Assembly (NCBI RefSeq): GCF_937425535.1
Contig: NZ_OW485601.1
Span: 611,001-675,000 of the forward strand
Direction of reading: 5' to 3'
Length of the DNA: 64,000 bases
Source of the DNA: Rhodovastum atsumiense
Lineage (GTDB): Bacteria; Pseudomonadota; Alphaproteobacteria; Acetobacterales; Acetobacteraceae
Position 1 is the first letter of the stretch. Each line of letters opens with the position of its first letter. Positions 51,644 to 60,442 of the stretch are shown piece after piece. The notes beneath the pieces were generated by a model. That model worked only from the letters and a program-made list of their open reading frames with translations, made no database searches and had not been told where the DNA came from. The position numbers and the translations under genes are program-made.

Positions 51644-52516
51644 TCAGCCGCGCGCCGGCAGATGCTTCGCGATGTAGGGGGGAAGCTGGAAGGCCGACCA
51701 GTGCACCTCCGGCGTCCAGTAGCTGGTGCCGCCCAGGATGCCGGCCGCCTCGGCGCGGGCGCGGATGGTTTCCACCGGCACCGCATCCAGCCCCGGGGCC
51801 TTGGCCGCGAAGCCAAGTGTCATGAACCCACCGACATAGGTAGGTACCGCTGCCACATAGGCACCGACATGCGGGAAGAACCGGGCCCGCCGCAAGCTGG
51901 TGTCGCGCAGTTCGTCGGCCTGCATGAACGGCACGCCGCACTGGTTCACGATCAATCCGCCAGCAGACAGGATGCGCGCCGCGTTGGCATAGAACTCATC
52001 GGTGAACAGGACCTCGCCCACCCCGATCGGATCGGTCGAATCGACGATGATCACATCGAAGGCCGCGTCCGGCGCGCGCTTCACGTAATCGATGCCGTCG
52101 CCCACGATGACCTCGGCGCGCGGATCGTTCCAGGCATCGCCGCCGATTCCCGGCAGGAACTCCTTCGCGAGGCGGATGACCTCGCCGTCGATCTCGACCA
52201 TGACCGCGCGTGCCACGCCGCGGTGCTGCAGCACCCGTTTCAGCACCCCGCCGTCGCCGGCGCCGATGATAAGGACGTTCTTCGCCGCCCCATGCGCCAG
52301 CAGCGGCACGTGGGTCAGCATCTCCTGGTAGACAAACTCGTCACCTTCGGTGATCTGCACCACGCCGTCGAGCAGCATCACCCGGCCATGCGAGGCGCTC
52401 TCGAAGATCGCGATGTCCTGGAAATCGCTCTGCACCCGGGCAAGCTCGCGCTTGACCAGGAAGCGCTGACCCCATTCGGCGTACAGCGTCTCGTTGATCC
52501 AGGAATCGGTGGCCAT
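51644..52516 (-). CDS. speE: Spermidine synthase (putrescine aminopropyltransferase)
   Basis: A 290-residue aminopropyltransferase. It carries an N-terminal beta strand region (VMLLDGVVQITEGDEFVYQEMLTHVPL), the decarboxy-AdoMet site VLIIGAGDGGVLKRVLQH, the acidic strand VMVEIDGEV and the putrescine site VDSTDPIGVGEVLF. It makes spermidine from putrescine and decarboxylated AdoMet. The ATG at 52516 has ACGGAGC upstream. speD lies just upstream, separated by repeat copy F. Confidence 0.95.
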   Translation of the reverse strand: MATDSWINETLYAEWGQRFLVKRELARVQSDFQDIAIFESASHGRVMLLDGVVQITEGDEFVYQEMLTHVPLLAHGAAKNVLIIGAGDGGVLKRVLQHRGVARAVMVEIDGEVIRLAKEFLPGIGGDAWNDPRAEVIVGDGIDYVKRAPDAAFDVIIVDSTDPIGVGEVLFTDEFYANAARILSAGGLIVNQCGVPFMQADELRDTSLRRARFFPHVGAYVAAVPTYVGGFMTLGFAAKAPGLDAVPVETIRARAEAAGILGGTSYWTPEVHWSAFQLPPYIAKHLPARG

Positions 52517-52539
52517 GGCGCGCTCCGTCAAGACGAGCC

Positions 52540-52663: not shown

Positions 52664-53128
52664 TCAGGAGACGCGCCCGCGCCGCTGCTCGTCGAGCACG
52701 ACCCGCTCCGGCCCGAAGGCACGCTGCAGCACGGGCAGCGACAGATGCGGATTGCAGGCGCCACACATGAAGATATCGATCGCCGCGAAGTCGCGTTCCG
52801 GCCAGGTGTGGATGGAGATGTGGCTCTCCGCCAGCACGACCACCCCGGACACGCCGCCATTGGGCGAGAAATGGTGGAAATGGCTGTGCAGGATGGTCGC
52901 ACCGGCCGTCACCGCCGCCTCGCGCAGCGCGGCGTCGATGTGGTCGGGATCGTCCAGCCGGCTGGCTCCCCACAGGTCGATGAGGAGGTGCGTGCCGGCA
53001 AACTTCATGCCGTCACGCTCTACGAAGTAGTCCTTCCGTTCGTCCTCGGCGCCCGCCGAGCGGATGTCTGTCGTCTGGTTCTCGCTCGGGAATTCCGAGA
53101 CCATCCCCAGTTGCGTGAGTGCGTTCAT
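52664..53128 (-). CDS. speD: S-adenosylmethionine decarboxylase proenzyme
   Basis: A 154-residue pyruvoyl enzyme that supplies decarboxylated AdoMet to SpeE. The self-cleavage site is VLAESHISIHTWPE (E101-S102, the serine becoming pyruvoyl), and IDIFMCGACNP carries the catalytic cysteine. About 38 residues precede the domain start (MKFAGTHLLIDLWG), longer than in short bacterial SpeD proteins. GGAGGG precedes the ATG at 53128. Confidence 0.95.
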   Translation of the reverse strand: MNALTQLGMVSEFPSENQTTDIRSAGAEDERKDYFVERDGMKFAGTHLLIDLWGASRLDDPDHIDAALREAAVTAGATILHSHFHHFSPNGGVSGVVVLAESHISIHTWPERDFAAIDIFMCGACNPHLSLPVLQRAFGPERVVLDEQRRGRVS

Positions 53129-53299
53129 CGCGCATCCCTCCATAACCAGTAGACAGCCTGTAGGGCGTGGGCCGCTTGCGCACGCCCCCGGGGGCCAAGG
53201 CGGCGGAACATGGGGAAAAAGGGGTGGCGCCGCAAGAGGGAATCCCCGCTCGAGCGTGGATTTCTTGCATATCCGGCGCGCGCCTCAAGCGAAGCCCTC

Positions 53300-56281
53300 T
53301 CAGCGACCTGCCACGCCCAGCAGCCCGCGCGCGAGCCCCGCCTCCGCCCGGGCCCGCGCCAGGTCATCCGGGGCCTGCACCGGGCCCGCCACCAGCAATC
53401 GCACCATATCGGCGGTCGGACCCGACGGCAGGCGCGATGTATCGCGCTGGCGTATCTGCGCCAGCAGCGTCTCGTCGCCGGCCTGCGCGGCCGCCGAGGC
53501 CAGCCGCAGCAACAGCCGCGTCTGCGCTTCGTCCAGGCCGCCCCGCTCCGGCAGGCTGCGTGCCACCAGGGTGCGCAGCGTTGCCGTCGCGCCTTTCCAA
53601 TCCTTTGCCTGCTCCAGCATCTGCAGTCGCAGCTCCTGTGCGGCCGGCGTGTCGAGCCCTTCCAGCACCGCCATGGCGCGGGCGACATCGCCCGTCGCCG
53701 CGGTGGCGCGTGCCCAGGTCAACGTGCGGCTTTCCTGCACGGCGGCGGGCAATGTCTCCGCTCCGGTCGCGGACAGGGCGGCCAACGCGCCGGCTGGATC
53801 GCCGATCTGCAGTCGATTCGCCGCGAGTTGCCCGCCCAGCTCCGCCCGCACCGGCCCAGGGGCGGCATTGGCGACCAACTTCTCCAGCACCGGCGCGGCC
53901 CGCCGCGGCAGGTCGAGCGCCGCCAGCCGGTCCGCCAGGCGGGTCGCAAGCTCCACCCCCTCCGGCGCAGCGGACATGAGATCGGCATTGTCCTCGATCA
54001 TCGCGACCAGTTCGAGTGGCGGCATCGATGGCGCCCCCGCATCGGTCAGGGCGGCGGCGAAAATCCGGGCCATGGCCGGCCGGACCTGCTCCGCCCGATC
54101 GGGCAGCGCCTCGGCGGACTCGCGCAACAGCGTCAGCGCGGCGCGCGGCGCGCCGGCCTGCGCCCGCAACTCGGCGGTTCGTATCCGCAGCGCCGCTTCC
54201 ATCCCGTCGCCACGCCAGGCATACAACAGCTTTTCCAGCGCATCGGCCGCGACCGATGGCGTGATCTCGCCCGCGGCAAGCCGCCGCTCCACGGCACGCG
54301 ACGCGGCACGCGCGCGCAGGCGGCGATCCGGCGACTGCGCCAACCGATCCAGCAGAGCAAGCGCCGCCGGGGGATCACGTGCTTCCAGCAGGAAGGCCCG
54401 CGCCAGATCCAGCGTCCGGTCCTCCGCCCGCGCCTCGACCAGCCGCCGGGCCGCTTCGGTTTCGCCCCCCAGCACCATGGTTTCCGCCACCAGCGGCAAC
54501 AATCGCGCCTGCAGCGGCGTCGGATACGCCAACAGCAGGGGCAGCGTCCTGGCCAGGCCGGATGCCGCTTCGGGCGCTCCCTCCCGCAGCATCGCCATGC
54601 GGACCGCACGCCAGAACGCCACCTCATCGGTGCCGGACAGACGCGCATCCTCGAGTCCCTCGGCTTCGGCGAGGCGGCCGGCAAGCAAGCTGGCAATGGC
54701 GAACAGGCCGATCTGGTCGGGGTTATCCACCGCACGCGGGTCCTCGGAGCCCGCGAGGGTCAGCACCGCCTGTGCCTCGGCGCCCAGGCCCAGCGCGATC
54801 ATCGCCTGCGCCATCGTCAGCCGGGACGCCGACCGCCGTGCCGGCGGCGCGGCGGACGCAGCCGCGAGCGCATCACGCAGCCGGGACTGCAACGCCGGAA
54901 CCGACTGCGGCGGCAGGTCGAACCGGCGGGTCAGGGGGGCGGCGTCGGCCAGTGCCGTCAGATCCGCCCCGACGGCGGTCAGCGCCAGCGCGCCCTGCGG
55001 GGAGGCCGCCGTCAACGCGAAGCCGCGCGGCATTTCCCGCAGCGAGAGGCCATCCGAAATAGCCGCGACGGCGACACCCTGCCAGGTGGGCAGAAGCATG
55101 AATTCGGGGGTGCGACGCAGCGTCGGGAAAGCCTGCCCCACCTTTCGCTGCGTCCCCACCAGCAGCAGGCCGCCGGTCAGTGTATCGGGAATGGCAACCG
55201 CCCGGCCCGGCGCGTCCAGTGGCAGCACGAGACGGCCGGCGGCGGCGTCCGGCTCCGGCCGGATCGGGCGGCCCCTGTCCGTTCCGCCGGCGATGCCGAC
55301 CATCCACCCGCCAGCCCCGGGCGCGAGCACCACCACATGGTCCGCCGACAGGCGCAGGCGCAGCACGGTCGCCGTCGGCAGCAACCTGATCTCGGCCGTG
55401 CCGAACACCGGATCGGCCTGCAAGGACGCGAGATCGATCGGACGACGTTCGTCGAACACCAGGACCGCTTCGTCACCACGGCGGAACGCGGCCGCGCCGG
55501 TCCCGCTCGTGAACGGCAGCAGCACCTTGCCCACCGGCGCCGCATCCGTGGCAGGCCCGGTCGGTCCGGACGGAGGCGTGCCGCCTGATGCAACTCCGGG
55601 TCGCGCGTCTTCGGCCGGCATCGACCGGGCTGGCGGGGCCTCGGCGACGGCCGGGGCCGGCTGGCCGGGCGCCGGCTCCGCTGTTGCGGGGGACGCCCCC
55701 GCCTGCGGCACGGGAACCGTGGCAACGGACGGCGCGGCGGCAGACACCGGATCAGCAGCCGTGGAAGACGCCTTGGAAGCGGAGGGCTTGGGGGCAGAAG
55801 GCGCACCAGAGGCCGTTTGCGGGCCGGGCTGGCGGCCTGCCGGCCCGGGCTTGCGCCCCGGCGTGGCGGCAGCGGCGGTGGTGGTGGCAGCAGGATCGAA
55901 CACGTCGATGATCAGCCGCTTGCCCATGCGCCAGTGCCGCAGCGAGACACCCGGCGGCAGGCTCAGCTCGACGCCACCGGATGTCGCCGCGATCGCGCGC
56001 ACGTTGCGGGGCGGGCGCTGGCCCGGCATCACCGCCTCGCCGGGAAAGAAGACCCGCACCTGCTCGCCCGTGTGTTCCACCCGCCAGGAGGTCCGCTCGG
56101 GTGGATCGAACACCACCCGGCCAAAGCCCGGATGGTCCCCGGTGCGCAGGGTGATCGCGGCCGGAGGCCGGGCGGACGCCCCTGCCGGGGCGGCGCCCTC
56201 TCCGGCCGCGGCGCCGGCAGGCAGCAGCGCCGCGAGCACCAACGGCAACAACCGGGCCGACCGGAAGGAGCGCCCGCGCAT
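53300..56281 (-). CDS. Large exported TPR-like protein of the flagellar/chemotaxis operon, function unknown
   Basis: A 993-residue protein. A signal peptide (about 1-27) predicts a periplasmic place. Residues about 40-130 form a beta-rich module (GFGRVVFDPP, TGEQVRVFFPGEA, GKRLIIDVFDP) reminiscent of AMIN domains. An alanine/proline-rich linker follows to about 240. A second beta-rich part (about 245-400) precedes roughly 550 residues of alpha-helical repeats with TPR-like spacing. I do not recognise a named family. Its ATG shares one base with the cheZ stop (TGATG), tying it to fliL-fliM-motE-cheY-cheZ. A periplasmic scaffold for the motor or stators is a reasonable guess only. Confidence 0.75.
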   Translation of the reverse strand: MRGRSFRSARLLPLVLAALLPAGAAAGEGAAPAGASARPPAAITLRTGDHPGFGRVVFDPPERTSWRVEHTGEQVRVFFPGEAVMPGQRPPRNVRAIAATSGGVELSLPPGVSLRHWRMGKRLIIDVFDPAATTTAAAATPGRKPGPAGRQPGPQTASGAPSAPKPSASKASSTAADPVSAAAPSVATVPVPQAGASPATAEPAPGQPAPAVAEAPPARSMPAEDARPGVASGGTPPSGPTGPATDAAPVGKVLLPFTSGTGAAAFRRGDEAVLVFDERRPIDLASLQADPVFGTAEIRLLPTATVLRLRLSADHVVVLAPGAGGWMVGIAGGTDRGRPIRPEPDAAAGRLVLPLDAPGRAVAIPDTLTGGLLLVGTQRKVGQAFPTLRRTPEFMLLPTWQGVAVAAISDGLSLREMPRGFALTAASPQGALALTAVGADLTALADAAPLTRRFDLPPQSVPALQSRLRDALAAASAAPPARRSASRLTMAQAMIALGLGAEAQAVLTLAGSEDPRAVDNPDQIGLFAIASLLAGRLAEAEGLEDARLSGTDEVAFWRAVRMAMLREGAPEAASGLARTLPLLLAYPTPLQARLLPLVAETMVLGGETEAARRLVEARAEDRTLDLARAFLLEARDPPAALALLDRLAQSPDRRLRARAASRAVERRLAAGEITPSVAADALEKLLYAWRGDGMEAALRIRTAELRAQAGAPRAALTLLRESAEALPDRAEQVRPAMARIFAAALTDAGAPSMPPLELVAMIEDNADLMSAAPEGVELATRLADRLAALDLPRRAAPVLEKLVANAAPGPVRAELGGQLAANRLQIGDPAGALAALSATGAETLPAAVQESRTLTWARATAATGDVARAMAVLEGLDTPAAQELRLQMLEQAKDWKGATATLRTLVARSLPERGGLDEAQTRLLLRLASAAAQAGDETLLAQIRQRDTSRLPSGPTADMVRLLVAGPVQAPDDLARARAEAGLARGLLGVAGR

Positions 56282-56928
56282 CAGTCGAAACTCGCCAGCA
56301 AGGCGTCGATGTCGTTCTGGCCCATGGCATTGGCCGGCAATTGCGGCCCGTGCAGCAAATCCTCCTGTGGTGAGGCAGAGGCCCGCGACGGTTCCCGCGG
56401 TGCCGGCTGCCCCTGCCGATCGCTGAACGCCGCCACGATGTGGGCCACCTTGGCTTCGATTGTCTTCAGCGTCGCCACCACCTTGGTAATGCGCTGGCCA
56501 GTGATGTCCTGGAAGCTGCAGGCCTCGTAGATGCGCGTGGTCGCTTCCTGAAGCTGGTTGGACAGTTCGCCGTACTCGTCGCCGGCGAGTTTCCCGCCGA
56601 CGCTGTCCAGCGTCTCGCAGGTCTCCAGGATCTGCTCGGTCGCTGCGGCGGTATGCGCCACGATCGCGTCGAGTTCGTCGGTCGCCGAGGGAATATCGCT
56701 GGCATTGATGTCGTGCATGCGCAGCGCCGCGATCTCGGCCTTCGCCGCGGCGATGGTGCGGCCTAGCTCGGCCACCTCGCCGAGCAGGGCCGTCTCCGCC
56801 GCAGTCAGGTCGCCCTGCATCGTCTCCAGCACGGCGCGGACGATCTCGGCCACGGCCGTCACCTCCACCGCGGGATGGCGCGCCCGAATGGCCTCCAGCC
56901 GCGCCCGCAGGGAGGGATCGTCAGCCAT
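56281..56928 (-). CDS. cheZ: CheZ-family protein phosphatase
   Basis: A 215-residue helical protein that should dephosphorylate CheY-P. The long central hairpin is visible, and EACSFQDITGQRITKVV (about 138-154) contains the CheZ active-site glutamine and aspartate. The C-terminal GQNDIDALLASFD matches the short CheY-binding tail. Its start overlaps the cheY stop by 8 bases, and its stop touches the exported TPR-like gene. Confidence 0.9.
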   Translation of the reverse strand: MADDPSLRARLEAIRARHPAVEVTAVAEIVRAVLETMQGDLTAAETALLGEVAELGRTIAAAKAEIAALRMHDINASDIPSATDELDAIVAHTAAATEQILETCETLDSVGGKLAGDEYGELSNQLQEATTRIYEACSFQDITGQRITKVVATLKTIEAKVAHIVAAFSDRQGQPAPREPSRASASPQEDLLHGPQLPANAMGQNDIDALLASFD

Positions 56929-57307
56929 GACCCAGCACCTTCTCGATCTTCTCGCGCAGCGTCTCGGCGTTGAAGGGCTTGACGATGTAGTTGGAGACGC
57001 CGGCCTGCTTCGCGGCCACCACGTTCTCGGCCTTGCTCTCGGCGGTGACCATGATGAAGGGCATGGATTTCAGCCTGGCATCCGCCCGCACTTCCTGCAG
57101 CAACTGCAGGCCGGTCATCGGCTGCATGTTCCAGTCGCTGATGACCAGGCCGAAATTGCCCGCCCGCAGCTTGGCCAGGGCCTCGGCGCCGTCGGTCGCC
57201 TCCTCGACGTTGTTGATGTCGATCTGCTTGAGCAGGTTGCGGATGATGCGCAGCATCGTCTTGTAATCATCCACAATCAGGACATTCATGGACTTGTCCA
57301 GGCTCAT
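56921..57307 (-). CDS. cheY: Chemotaxis response regulator CheY
   Basis: A 128-residue single receiver. Acidic pair VDD (13-14), phospho-acceptor in LVISDWNMQPMTG (D58), threonine in IMVTAES and lysine in YIVKPFN are all present; MQPMTG is typical of motor-binding CheY. It starts inside the motE stop (ATGA) and overlaps cheZ, so the phosphatase and its substrate are co-translated. Confidence 0.93.
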   Translation of the reverse strand: MSLDKSMNVLIVDDYKTMLRIIRNLLKQIDINNVEEATDGAEALAKLRAGNFGLVISDWNMQPMTGLQLLQEVRADARLKSMPFIMVTAESKAENVVAAKQAGVSNYIVKPFNAETLREKIEKVLGHG

Positions 57308-58128
57308 TGTTTCTCCTCCGGGCGCAGGATTCGCGCCGACGTGGTGGCGGGGGGGGTTGCAGGGACGTTCGCGCGCAGGCGCAATTGCGCCAGTTCGGCG
57401 GTCACCAGGCGGGCGCGCTCGGGCTGCATGAATCCCAGCACGGGCGCCGCCTTGGACTCCTTCATCCGGTCCAGCACCGCCAGAAGCACCGGCAGGTCCA
57501 AATCGTTGAAGATCGTTGCCGCGTCACGCGGCTTCATGGTCTCGTAGAGCTTCACCAGGCCGCGCCAGTTGGCTTCGCCACGCTCGCGCCGGGTCGCCTC
57601 CAGCGCCTCCAGCCGGGTCTGCAACGCCGACAGTTCGTCCAGCCGCGCGGCCAGTCGCTTCTCGGCGGCCTGCAGCGCCGCCTCGCGGGCGCCCAGCGTG
57701 GAAGCCTGCGCCTCGATCTCGGTCCGGCGCGCGCGCAGGTCGAGCAACAACGCCCGTTCGCTGTCGGAAACCGGCGGCACCTGCGGCAAAGCCTGCGGCG
57801 GCGCCGGTGCTTCGGCGGGCCGCGCGGGCTGGTCCCGCGCCGCCTCGGACGCGGTCGCCGGCTCGGGCCTCGTGGCCTCGGGCCTTGTGACCTCGGGCGC
57901 GGGCCGGGTCCGGCCGGTGGAGGACACGGGCGCCGGGCCCCCGCCCGTTGCCGGTGATGGCGGCATGAGCGGGGTCGGCACCGTCGCCGCATGCGCCGTC
58001 TCCGGCGGCAGCACATGACCAACCAGCACCACCGACTTCACCGTCAGCAATGCCGCCATCGTTGCGATGGTGGCCGGCAGCAGCCGGGGAGGAGCCAGGA
58101 CGGCCCGCATGCCTGGTGCCTTCTTCAT
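57304..58128 (-). CDS. MotE-like protein with MgtE N-terminal-like domain
   Basis: A 274-residue protein with an N-terminal span (about 14-40), a long proline/alanine-rich periplasmic linker, a coiled coil (about 125-185) and an MgtE-N-like domain with MKPRDAATIFNDLDLPVLLAVLDRMKESKAAPVLGFM. This order matches alphaproteobacterial MotE, reported as a periplasmic chaperone or stator-associated protein. The start is ATG 58128, one base after the DUF6468 gene. It overlaps cheY by 4 bases. Confidence 0.85.
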   Translation of the reverse strand: MKKAPGMRAVLAPPRLLPATIATMAALLTVKSVVLVGHVLPPETAHAATVPTPLMPPSPATGGGPAPVSSTGRTRPAPEVTRPEATRPEPATASEAARDQPARPAEAPAPPQALPQVPPVSDSERALLLDLRARRTEIEAQASTLGAREAALQAAEKRLAARLDELSALQTRLEALEATRRERGEANWRGLVKLYETMKPRDAATIFNDLDLPVLLAVLDRMKESKAAPVLGFMQPERARLVTAELAQLRLRANVPATPPATTSARILRPEEKQ

Positions 58129-58129
58129 C

Positions 58130-58579
58130 TCAGCGCGCCATGCGCAAGGCCCGCAGCAGATCGCGCTCGGCCTGGCTGCGCAGCCGCGGCTCCGCCTCGT
58201 CCGGCCGCGACGGATCGCGGGACGGCTCCGGGGCCGGATCGGACGTGTCCTGGCCCAGGGGGCGCGCCACACGCAGCACCCGGTCCAGACGATCGGCGAG
58301 CTTCTCGCCGCGCTCGGTCAGGAAGGCCAGGTCGTCCTTCAATCCGGACGCCACTTCCGTCTGGCGCTGCACCTGCCGTCCCGTGCCCTCCGCCGCCGTG
58401 CGCAACCGCTCGATCCCCTGCTCGGCCGCGCGGGTGCTGCTGTTGAAGCCGGCCACCAGCTCTTCCAGCATGGCACGATCGCGCTTGAGCACCCCGAGTG
58501 CCCGCTCCAGCCGCACCGCATGGAACAGGGTCGCGGTGAGCAACACGAGAAGAACAGTTTCCAGCAGCCATTCCATCAT
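58130..58579 (-). CDS. DUF6468 flagellar-locus protein
   Basis: A 149-residue protein with one N-terminal membrane span (about 3-20), a helical cytoplasmic part (LGVLKRDRAMLEELVAGFNSSTRAAEQGIERLR) and a charged tail. It resembles DUF6468 proteins that lie between fliM and motE in related Rhodospirillales. No function is established. AGGA precedes the first of two tandem ATG codons (58579). Confidence 0.75.
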   Translation of the reverse strand: MMEWLLETVLLVLLTATLFHAVRLERALGVLKRDRAMLEELVAGFNSSTRAAEQGIERLRTAAEGTGRQVQRQTEVASGLKDDLAFLTERGEKLADRLDRVLRVARPLGQDTSDPAPEPSRDPSRPDEAEPRLRSQAERDLLRALRMAR

Positions 58580-58623: not shown

Positions 58624-59676
58624 TCAGCGCTCCATCGGCTGGGGTCGCGGCAGGTCGCGGTCGATGCGCACGGCGATGCGGTTCTTGCGCCGCCCGACCT
58701 TGCCTTCGTACAGCGGTGTCGCGCCGCAACGAAGCTGCACCGATGCCCCCGGACCGCATCCCAGCAGGATGCGGCTGCCCGGCTGCAGGGCCAGCACATC
58801 GGACAGGCGCATCACCTGTTCGTCCAGCACCACCGCGAGGTCGATGTCGGTGTTCCACAGCTCCTCGGCGAGATGCGTCTCCCAGATCGAATCGCGGCCG
58901 AACTTCTCTCCCATGAACTGCTGCAGCAGCAGCTCACGCACCGGCTCGAGCGTGGCATAGGGCAACAGCAGCTCGAGCCGTCCGCCGCGATCCTCCATCT
59001 CGATGCGCAACGGCACCAGCACCGCCGCGTTCGACAGCCGGCTGACCGCGGCGAAGCGCGGATTCACCTCGAGGCGCTCGAAGCGGAATGTCACCGGGCA
59101 TAGCGGATCGAAGCTCGCGGTCAGGTCGGCCAGCACCACCTGGATCATCCGCTCGACCAGGGTGCGCTCGATCGTGGTATAGGGCCGCCCCTCGATGCGC
59201 ATCGCGGCGGTGCCGCGGCGTCCGCCGAGCAGCACGTCCACGATCGAATAGATCATGGCGGAGTCGACCACCATCAGGCCGTAATTGTCCCACTCCTCCG
59301 CCTTGAACACCGCCAGCATCGCCGGCAGGGGGATGGAGTTGAGGTAGTCGCCGAAGCGAAGCGACGCGATGTCGTCGATCGAGACCTCGACATTGTCGCT
59401 GGTGAAGTTGCGCAGGCTGGTCGACATGATGCGCACCAGCCGGTCGAACACGATCTCCAGCATCGGCAGCCGGTCGTAGCTGACCAGCCCCGAGCTGATG
59501 ATCTTCTGCATGCCCGAACGGCTTTCGCCGTCCGCGCGCCGGTTGTCGAAGCCGAGCAGGCTGTCGATCTCGGCCTGATTCAGGTCCCGATGCGCCTGCA
59601 CCGGCATCGCGCCGGCCGCGGCTTCCTCGGTTTCCGCGCCCCAGGCAGCCGCGAGGTCCTCGTCCGAGCCGCTCAT
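58624..59676 (-). CDS. fliM: Flagellar motor switch protein FliM
   Basis: A 350-residue C-ring protein. LNQAEIDSLLGFD near residue 33 is the switch-protein motif, followed by a CheC-like middle domain (LEIVFDRLVRIMSTSLRNFTSDNVEV, PLPAMLAVFKAEEWDNYGLMVVDSAMIYSIVDVLLGG) and a C-terminal SpoA domain (DVLALQPGSRILL). It binds CheY-P to reverse or stop rotation. The start overlaps the fliL stop (ATGA). Confidence 0.96.
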   Translation of the reverse strand: MSGSDEDLAAAWGAETEEAAAGAMPVQAHRDLNQAEIDSLLGFDNRRADGESRSGMQKIISSGLVSYDRLPMLEIVFDRLVRIMSTSLRNFTSDNVEVSIDDIASLRFGDYLNSIPLPAMLAVFKAEEWDNYGLMVVDSAMIYSIVDVLLGGRRGTAAMRIEGRPYTTIERTLVERMIQVVLADLTASFDPLCPVTFRFERLEVNPRFAAVSRLSNAAVLVPLRIEMEDRGGRLELLLPYATLEPVRELLLQQFMGEKFGRDSIWETHLAEELWNTDIDLAVVLDEQVMRLSDVLALQPGSRILLGCGPGASVQLRCGATPLYEGKVGRRKNRIAVRIDRDLPRPQPMER

Positions 59677-60227
59677 TGCACCAGCAACTCCGTGAACAGC
59701 ACGTCGGTGACACGGGCCGGGGCGACGGCGAGATTGGCGCGCGCGATCAGTTCCTCGCGCAGCCGCCACGTGCCCATCGACCCGCGCAGTTCCTCGGGGC
59801 GCATCTCCCGCAGATAGGTCTGGAACAGGTCGAGCAGCCGCGGCATGACCGCGGTGACGGTGGCGCCGTCCTCGGCCCGCGCAAGTTCCAGCCGGGCCCG
59901 CAGCTTCACGAAGCTTGCCCGCCGCCCGGGCATGACATTGAGGTTGGAGATCATCTCGGGCAGTTCGACGAAGACCGGCAGATCCTTCGTGCCCGCACCA
60001 CCCGCCGCGGCCGGGCGCCCCTGGCGCGCCGCATCGGCACTTCCGGCCGGTTCGCCACCGGCGCTGCGGGATTTCCCGCCCATGCCGAACAGCGGCGGCA
60101 GGACGCCACCGAACCACAGCGCCGCCCCCGTGCCCGACAGCAGCACGGGCACCCCGATCAGAAGCAGGCGCCGCCGTGTGTTGACCGGGGCTGGTGCCGC
60201 CGTTTCGTCCGATGCCGCCGCTGCCAT
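59673..60227 (-). CDS. fliL: Flagellar basal-body associated protein FliL
   Basis: A 184-residue single-span protein. The cytoplasmic tail and span (RRRLLLIGVPVLLSGTGAALWFG) lead to a periplasmic domain with PEMISNLN, FVKLRARLEL and TYLREMRPEELRGSMGTWRLREELIARAN, the FliL pattern. It stabilises stators. The first gene of the seven-gene run to the exported TPR-like gene. The ATG at 60227 is used; a GTG six bases upstream is possible. Confidence 0.92.
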   Translation of the reverse strand: MAAAASDETAAPAPVNTRRRLLLIGVPVLLSGTGAALWFGGVLPPLFGMGGKSRSAGGEPAGSADAARQGRPAAAGGAGTKDLPVFVELPEMISNLNVMPGRRASFVKLRARLELARAEDGATVTAVMPRLLDLFQTYLREMRPEELRGSMGTWRLREELIARANLAVAPARVTDVLFTELLVQ

Positions 60228-60442
60228 GGTCACCCTGCCGCTCTGCGCCCGTGAAGAGGGATGTGAATGGGAAAAGAAGTCGCGCAATCTGCTGCGCGTG
60301 ACCGCCATCCTGGCCCGCCCAGGTTAAGAGATCCTGAACTTCGCGGCTGAACCTGCCGGATATGCGCCCGGCACCCGGCACGGATTGCCGATCGGCATCG
60401 GCTGCCCTGCCGGCCATGCGGCGTTTTCCGCCATCCCGGCTC

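Follow-up and report, generated by a model that had tools for sequence, protein, structure and literature searches.

The locus and its operon

In a 64,000-nucleotide stretch of the Rhodovastum atsumiense genome (Acetobacteraceae; assembly GCF_937425535.1, contig NZ_OW485601.1, positions 611,001 to 675,000), hereafter the window, a flagellar operon ends in an open reading frame (ORF) of 993 codons, which encodes a candidate periplasmic scaffold protein of the flagellar motor. In window coordinates, the ORF runs from 56281 to 53300 on the minus strand, and its product has 993 amino acids. The order of transcription is fliL, fliM, the DUF6468 gene, a motE-like gene, cheY, cheZ and then this ORF. 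The stop codon of cheZ and the start of the ORF share exactly one base (TGATG), the A of the TGA serving as the first base of the ATG, which confirmed an earlier note on this DNA describing a 993-residue frame joined in this way to the end of the operon. Pfam matches above cutoff were obtained for FliL, FliM, DUF6468, CheY (response regulator) and CheZ, while the MotE-like protein is matched in Pfam only by MgtE_N below the cutoff (21.2 of 25.9 bits) and in NCBIfam by the spirochaete collar protein FlbB, also below the cutoff (E 2e-5, 24.5 of 110 bits). The genes of the operon are as follows.

53300-56281, minus strand: candidate MotK/PflA-type periplasmic motor scaffold protein, 993 amino acids (ORF, kept locus order, structural model, family hidden Markov model)
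56281-56928, minus strand: cheZ (PF04344, 63 bits), whose stop overlaps the start of the 993-codon ORF by one base
56921-57307, minus strand: cheY-type response regulator (PF00072)
57304-58128, minus strand: motE-like gene, for a putative E-ring protein of the FlgY/FlbB type (MgtE_N and FlbB matches below cutoff; position conserved)
58130-58579, minus strand: DUF6468 protein (PF20072, 75 bits)
58624-59676, minus strand: fliM (PF02154)
59673-60308, minus strand: fliL (PF03748)

The DUF6468 gene, directly before motE, occupies the slot of pflI in the Cereibacter sphaeroides order fliL-pflI-motE. The word DUF6468 does not occur in the open-licence papers that were searched.

Predicted architecture of the 993-residue protein

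The most hydrophobic 19-residue stretch of the protein by hydropathy, the only criterion used here, is residues 9-27, and we infer that the protein is exported. The start codon that yields this N-terminus is backed by the TGATG overlap, whereas the starts in other loci were chosen by hydropathy, so they provide no independent support. The protein contains no cysteine. An AlphaFold2 model built on 46 aligned sequences (mean predicted local distance difference test, pLDDT, 85.2) has strands at residues 42-128 and 251-425 and helices at residues 439-992, in agreement with the beta modules and helical repeats that the earlier note had read from the letters, and the second beta module reaches a pLDDT of 94 when residues 251-425 are modelled alone. 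The parts of the protein, all on the minus strand, are listed here.

56201-56281, minus strand: signal-peptide-like N-terminus, approximately residues 1-27 (hydropathy, most hydrophobic at residues 9-27)
55898-56158, minus strand: AMIN-type domain, residues 42-128, eight strands (family profiles and AlphaFold2 model)
55541-55885, minus strand: linker, residues 133-247, disordered in the model (pLDDT mostly <50) and composed to 79% of P/A/G/S/T
55286-55531, minus strand: first half of the second beta module, residues 251-332, AMIN-related (profile-profile match; PilQ in the structure search)
55007-55270, minus strand: second half of the second beta module, residues 338-425 (no match found)
53306-54967, minus strand: alpha superhelix, residues 439-992, TPR-like (AlphaFold helices, Pfam matches of the family, structure searches)

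The alignment used for the model (A3) combines the window protein with 45 of the 57 long family ORFs. The omitted ORFs are four plasmid copies, two truncated by contig ends (L010, L036), one divided between two reading frames (L024), L034 and L064, each closely related to a row that was retained, and three whose start is uncertain (L009, L017, L083); seventeen shorter homologue pieces were left unaligned. Two further alignments hold 43 of the 46 rows (A4, without L015, L030 and L031) and 45 of the 46 (A5, without L068).

The window protein on its own scores 14.3 of 27 bits against the Pfam AMIN-like family, which is below the curated cutoff. Among the 46 family members, 30 match PF24837 (AMIN-like) and six match PF11741 (AMIN) at E ≤ 0.1. 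When a profile of the N-terminal domain was searched against 177,635 sequences of the PDB, PilQ came first at 1.3e-6 (0.0051 for its best single stretch), followed at 0.0074 by Slr0280, which we take to be an AMIN-family protein. Thus, judged from sequence comparison across the family rather than from a Pfam AMIN match of its own, the N-terminal domain is predicted to be of AMIN type. A hidden Markov model (HMM) of this domain, built from the 29 rows closest to the window protein, also matches every one of the 17 other rows, which are the only ones of the 46 independent of the training. In 15 of these 17 the match occurs twice in tandem, whereas tandem copies are found in none of the 29 training rows. 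The proteins with two tandem N-terminal AMIN domains, which lie farther from the window protein, are L049, L051, L056, L059, L061, L065, L066, L069, L070, L072, L075, L076, L077, L079 and L085.

A further AMIN-related domain forms the first half of the second beta module; this call was made because two kinds of evidence stand together, a profile-profile match to the N-terminal AMIN domain (probability 92, E 6e-7) and PilQ in the structure search. In the latter, performed with VIA, the top rows for the module were PilQ at Z 5.9 (root-mean-square deviation 2.7, 87 residues) and Z 4.2 (3.1, 85 residues); these values are below the level that is safe alone, were counted only together with the profile match, and cover mainly the first half (model residues 1-87). 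Foldseek gave no match for the module at E ≤ 1e-3, its first rank being PilQ (3jc8_Qa) at E 0.25. For the second half of the module, no match was obtained to the AMIN profile or to the first half.

For the helical part, Pfam finds no TPR match in the window protein alone at E ≤ 1, and TPR_19 matches 18 of the 46 family members at E ≤ 0.1. Together with the modelled helices and the structure searches, this points to a TPR-like fold for residues 439-992. A Foldseek search of 350,542 PDB chains with the model placed chain K of 9hmf, a Campylobacter jejuni motor scaffold, at rank 1 (E 5.2e-7); from its 773 residues, we infer this chain to be PflA. In VIA, the whole model matched generic TPR superhelices (highest Z 14.2); the 50 rows listed include no protein of a bacterial flagellar motor, which is not evidence of absence. 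Searched against the PDB, the family profile matched PflB (9leq_B) at E 0.098 and no row named PflA, and a phmmer search with the single protein found no solved Pfl protein at E ≤ 1, only two chance-level rows.

The family in flagellar loci and on plasmids

The distribution of the gene was followed in 80 loci, the best 80 of at least 580 relatives matched by the window FliM in genome contigs. Most of their titles name Acetobacteraceae or Rhodospirillales, with Azospirillum, Magnetospirillum and Thalassospira among them. In 67 of the 80 loci, a homologue of the 993-residue protein lies downstream of fliM in the same orientation; because order and strand are kept in this way, the ORF is not a chance reading frame. 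Of the 13 loci without a homologue, 11 are contig ends, where the sequence stops no more than 171 bases past the final operon gene detected. The remaining two, both from Azospirillum (L073, L084), have neither a cheZ match nor a homologue in approximately 8.4 kb after motE. The TGATG motif occurs at the cheZ stop in 28 of the 62 loci that have both a cheZ match and a homologue. Distance correlations over 45 loci between the ORF and fliM (0.57), motE (0.58) and DUF6468 (0.77) reflect the species tree too and were not used as evidence, nor was a nominal probability of co-occurrence, in which related plasmids count as independent. A scan of genome contigs with the 993-residue protein itself gave no match, and the viral contigs searched contained no homologue.

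The family HMM gave 85 matches among 14,850 ORFs (six-frame, at least 60 codons) of 98 loci and the window. Its sole match outside the flagellar family members was at E 0.77. On a Komagataeibacter flagellar plasmid, a further pair of proteins annotated as TPR received 1.3 and −1.2 bits (E 0.006 and 0.04 for a set of just these two), compared with 43 to 58 bits for the lowest-scoring family members beyond the starting loci. Thus, one profile sets the family apart from the remaining ORFs in its loci, this pair of TPR proteins among them, and links several alphaproteobacterial orders. It reaches flagellar plasmids of Sphingomonadales and the Roseobacter group. A reverse HMM made from five Roseobacter proteins matched 42 family ORFs (3.5e-28 to 8e-4), and in a profile-profile comparison the Roseobacter group matched the family with a probability of 99.9 (E 1e-31) over 527 columns of the helical part.

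In tblastn searches of 72,556 plasmid records with the protein or its relatives, homologues were found on 26 distinct records, which include related strains and are not 26 independent events: five of Acetobacteraceae, two of Sphingomonadales and 19 of the Roseobacter group. The last were found with a Marinovum query, itself a family-HMM match on a flagellar plasmid. The earlier note had named homologues mainly outside flagellar loci as the outcome that would tell against a motor role; flagellar genes are present on all 26 records. In 24 cases the record is among the 60 listed of 70 plasmid records with FliM, and the other two carry the gene between flagellar rod and hook genes. The neighbourhood was viewed for 13 of the 26, the other 13 being known by FliM on the same record only, and for one unannotated record among those viewed only a FliM match approximately 2 kb upstream is known. 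The gene lies directly before flgB/flgC on the Acetobacter and Aristophania plasmids, approximately 2 kb past flgI and a rod-binding gene on the Komagataeibacter plasmid, and approximately 0.9 kb after fliL-fliM-DUF6468 and a hypothetical gene on the Erythrobacter plasmid. In Aristophania vespae KACC 21507 (L005, 2560-5174), the annotation divides the homologue into two neighbouring genes that differ in frame; in strain DM15PD it is one gene.

On a Roseomonas marmotae plasmid (L089, 21708-24137), an 809-residue 'hypothetical' protein matched by the family HMM is encoded between motA and a flgF-like gene, an order that resembles motA-motK of C. sphaeroides, here in Acetobacteraceae. The HMM matches its AMIN-and-linker part and its helical part. 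Pfam sees a weak TPR and no AMIN at E ≤ 1, and an AMIN domain is not claimed for this protein. The Roseobacter flagellar plasmids encode an unnamed protein of approximately 600 residues between flgF-like and flgE-like genes, with a helical part related to the family, at these positions.

L091, 5571-7424: Roseobacter protein of approximately 600 residues
L095, 4001-5803: Roseobacter protein of approximately 600 residues
L097, 3022-4869: Roseobacter protein of approximately 600 residues
L098, 2779-4596: Roseobacter protein of approximately 600 residues

A candidate motor spoke and its rivals

Proteins of a comparable design have been described in other flagellar motors. MotK of the C. sphaeroides Fla2 system is exported, has an AMIN-like N-terminus of eight strands and TPR-like helices, and is encoded with fliL and motE; it is needed for rotation and binds MotE and MotB2, and distant homologues were proposed in Roseobacteraceae and Caulobacteraceae (CC_2058) (PMC10954123). 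The window protein resembles MotK as described there (PMC10954123) in a putative signal sequence (here by hydropathy), the eight-stranded AMIN-like N-terminus, a low-confidence proline-rich middle followed by a TPR-like helical part, and a gene in a fliL-motE operon with starts and stops that overlap or lie close. In contrast, MotK has 652 residues and is encoded after motA2 (PMC10954123), whereas the window protein has 993 and follows cheZ, and it carries an extra AMIN-related beta module before the helices; the two are likened by design and context. In Caulobacter crescentus, FssB (CC_2058) has a Sec signal and TPR (PMC7885107), as would the window protein, adjoins the motE homologue CC_2059 (PMC13023049) and has an N-terminal AMIN-like fold, although the Caulobacter proteins were reported to lack BLAST similarity to MotK (PMC10954123). 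The motor of an fssB mutant is inactive (PMC7885107).

The PflA protein of C. jejuni consists of a beta-sandwich, an unstructured linker and a superhelix of 16 TPRs, and was modelled as a radial spoke (PMC12222027). It shares with the window protein the order of N-terminal beta-sandwich/AMIN, unstructured linker and TPR superhelix, and it works with the E-ring protein FlgY, which is read as the MotE counterpart (PMC12222027, PMC11870540). It belongs to a different phylum and is paired with PflB, and in the available parts of these papers no second beta module is described for it (PMC12222027, PMC11870540). In PMC13023049, MotE is argued to form the E-ring, and MotC, MotK and CC_2058 are argued to correspond to PflA. 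MotC of Sinorhizobium meliloti is likewise a periplasmic TPR protein tied to MotE, but the AMIN domain is ascribed to MotK only in the passages available (PMC13023049). FlgY and PflA-like proteins were surveyed across bacteria in PMC11870540, which found TPR proteins hard to trace by sequence. Among the open-licence papers listed by the literature searches, no title concerns this gene in Rhodospirillales, and the supplementary table of PMC11870540 may list such genes.

Taken together, it is likely that the 993-residue protein is an exported, soluble periplasmic scaffold, or 'spoke', of the flagellar motor and the Rhodospirillales counterpart of MotK, FssB/CC_2058 and PflA. The earlier note proposed an undescribed periplasmic part of the motor that might dock stators or peptidoglycan together with MotE and FliL; the motor association and the scaffold role are well supported. 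However, the kind of part, including its pairing with MotE and its AMIN domain, is already described as MotK, FssB/CC_2058 and PflA (PMC10954123, PMC7885107, PMC12222027, PMC11870540, PMC13023049), and the window gene looks like its Rhodospirillales branch. By analogy with MotK and PflA, one or more AMIN domains would hold the protein to peptidoglycan, which they probably grip, or to a scaffold partner. The superhelix, which probably contacts both the MotE E-ring and the stators, would bridge the two, and the stator units would thereby be positioned or activated. Loss of the protein would then leave flagellated cells that do not turn their flagella.

Several observations weigh against this assignment. 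The case for kinship to MotK, CC_2058 and PflA is built on similar design and gene context rather than on aligned sequences. The 80 loci were picked by FliM and show conserved linkage, not exclusivity. The match to 9hmf chain K has a TM score of 0.15-0.19 and is hardly better than those to eukaryotic TPR proteins (rank 2 at E 6.9e-7), so it may reflect TPR repeats only, and the best PDB sequence matches of the family profile are to generic TPR proteins (best 1.2e-5, up to 26.7 bits). An Indioceanicola plasmid (L090) and a cluster on Azospirillum brasilense plasmid p4 (L099) have fliM, DUF6468 and motE matches, with no homologue detected in 25 kb and 29 kb, respectively, showing that motE and the 993-codon gene are not inseparable; their motors may have no spokes, or the gene may lie elsewhere or have diverged. 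The Azospirillum rugosum homologue (L079) matches no Azospirillum plasmid at E ≤ 1e-5. The Roseobacter HMM misses, at E ≤ 1, the window protein and the Sphingomonadales, Roseomonas and Acetobacteraceae plasmid copies. In addition, the Komagataeibacter, Acetobacter and Aristophania plasmid copies do not align with the N-terminal AMIN domain, and the Roseobacter copies match essentially in the helical part; thus, binding to peptidoglycan through AMIN cannot be a requirement throughout the family.

Client binding is common among TPR proteins, and it is conceivable, though unlikely, that the protein is an assembly factor or chaperone for motor proteins such as MotE or MotB rather than a lasting structural part. 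MotE itself was initially interpreted as a MotC chaperone, and it is unstable without MotK in C. sphaeroides (PMC10954123, PMC13023049). However, MotK-sfGFP is located at the flagellated pole in dependence on MotA2/MotB2 (PMC10954123), PflA was modelled as a radial spoke (PMC12222027), and a large AMIN-carrying protein would fit a scaffold better.

AMIN domains are known from amidases and secretins, and with the PilQ profile match and the CtpA-LbcA complex at rank 18 of the Foldseek rows one could picture a general cell-wall protein, with AMIN for peptidoglycan and TPR as adaptor, like LbcA with its protease, whose presence in the operon is fortuitous. The conserved position of the gene in 67 of 80 FliM loci and the flagellar genes on every plasmid record with a homologue render this highly improbable. 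A protein linked to chemotaxis, as the position after cheY-cheZ might indicate, is the least credible of the alternatives. The overlap with cheZ would favour it, as would three Azospirillum loci (L078, L079, L082) where additional DNA lies between motE and cheZ and the homologue still follows cheZ. However, the N-terminus is signal-peptide-like, whereas CheY and CheZ act in the cytoplasm, five loci (L028, L048, L055, L056, L075) have the homologue after motE with no cheZ found, and on plasmids the gene stands beside flgB/flgC or between flgF and flgE.

A wider proposal can be made, which we hold tentatively and with the balance tipping slightly against it: one orthologous spoke of AMIN domains and TPR superhelix would extend across Rhodospirillales, Sphingomonadales and Rhodobacterales and have a common ancestor with MotK, FssB and PflA. 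Depending on the motor type, its AMIN part would grow (two N-terminal copies and the AMIN-related third, 15 of 46), shrink (Acetobacter-type plasmids) or vanish (Roseobacter plasmids), so that the number of peptidoglycan grips would be an evolving trait readable from sequence. The proteins of periplasmic spokes and the E-ring outside Campylobacterota and spirochaetes are still being worked out, and the family provides named genes in flagellar clusters as deletion targets in genera that are motile and can be cultured, such as Azospirillum or Magnetospirillum.

Downstream of the motor operon, the window carries the spermidine synthesis genes speD (52664-53143) and speE (51644-52531). Among the loci L006-L085, 43 have enough sequence to show this region, and 32 of these have a speD match no more than 1.5 kb downstream in the orientation of the operon.

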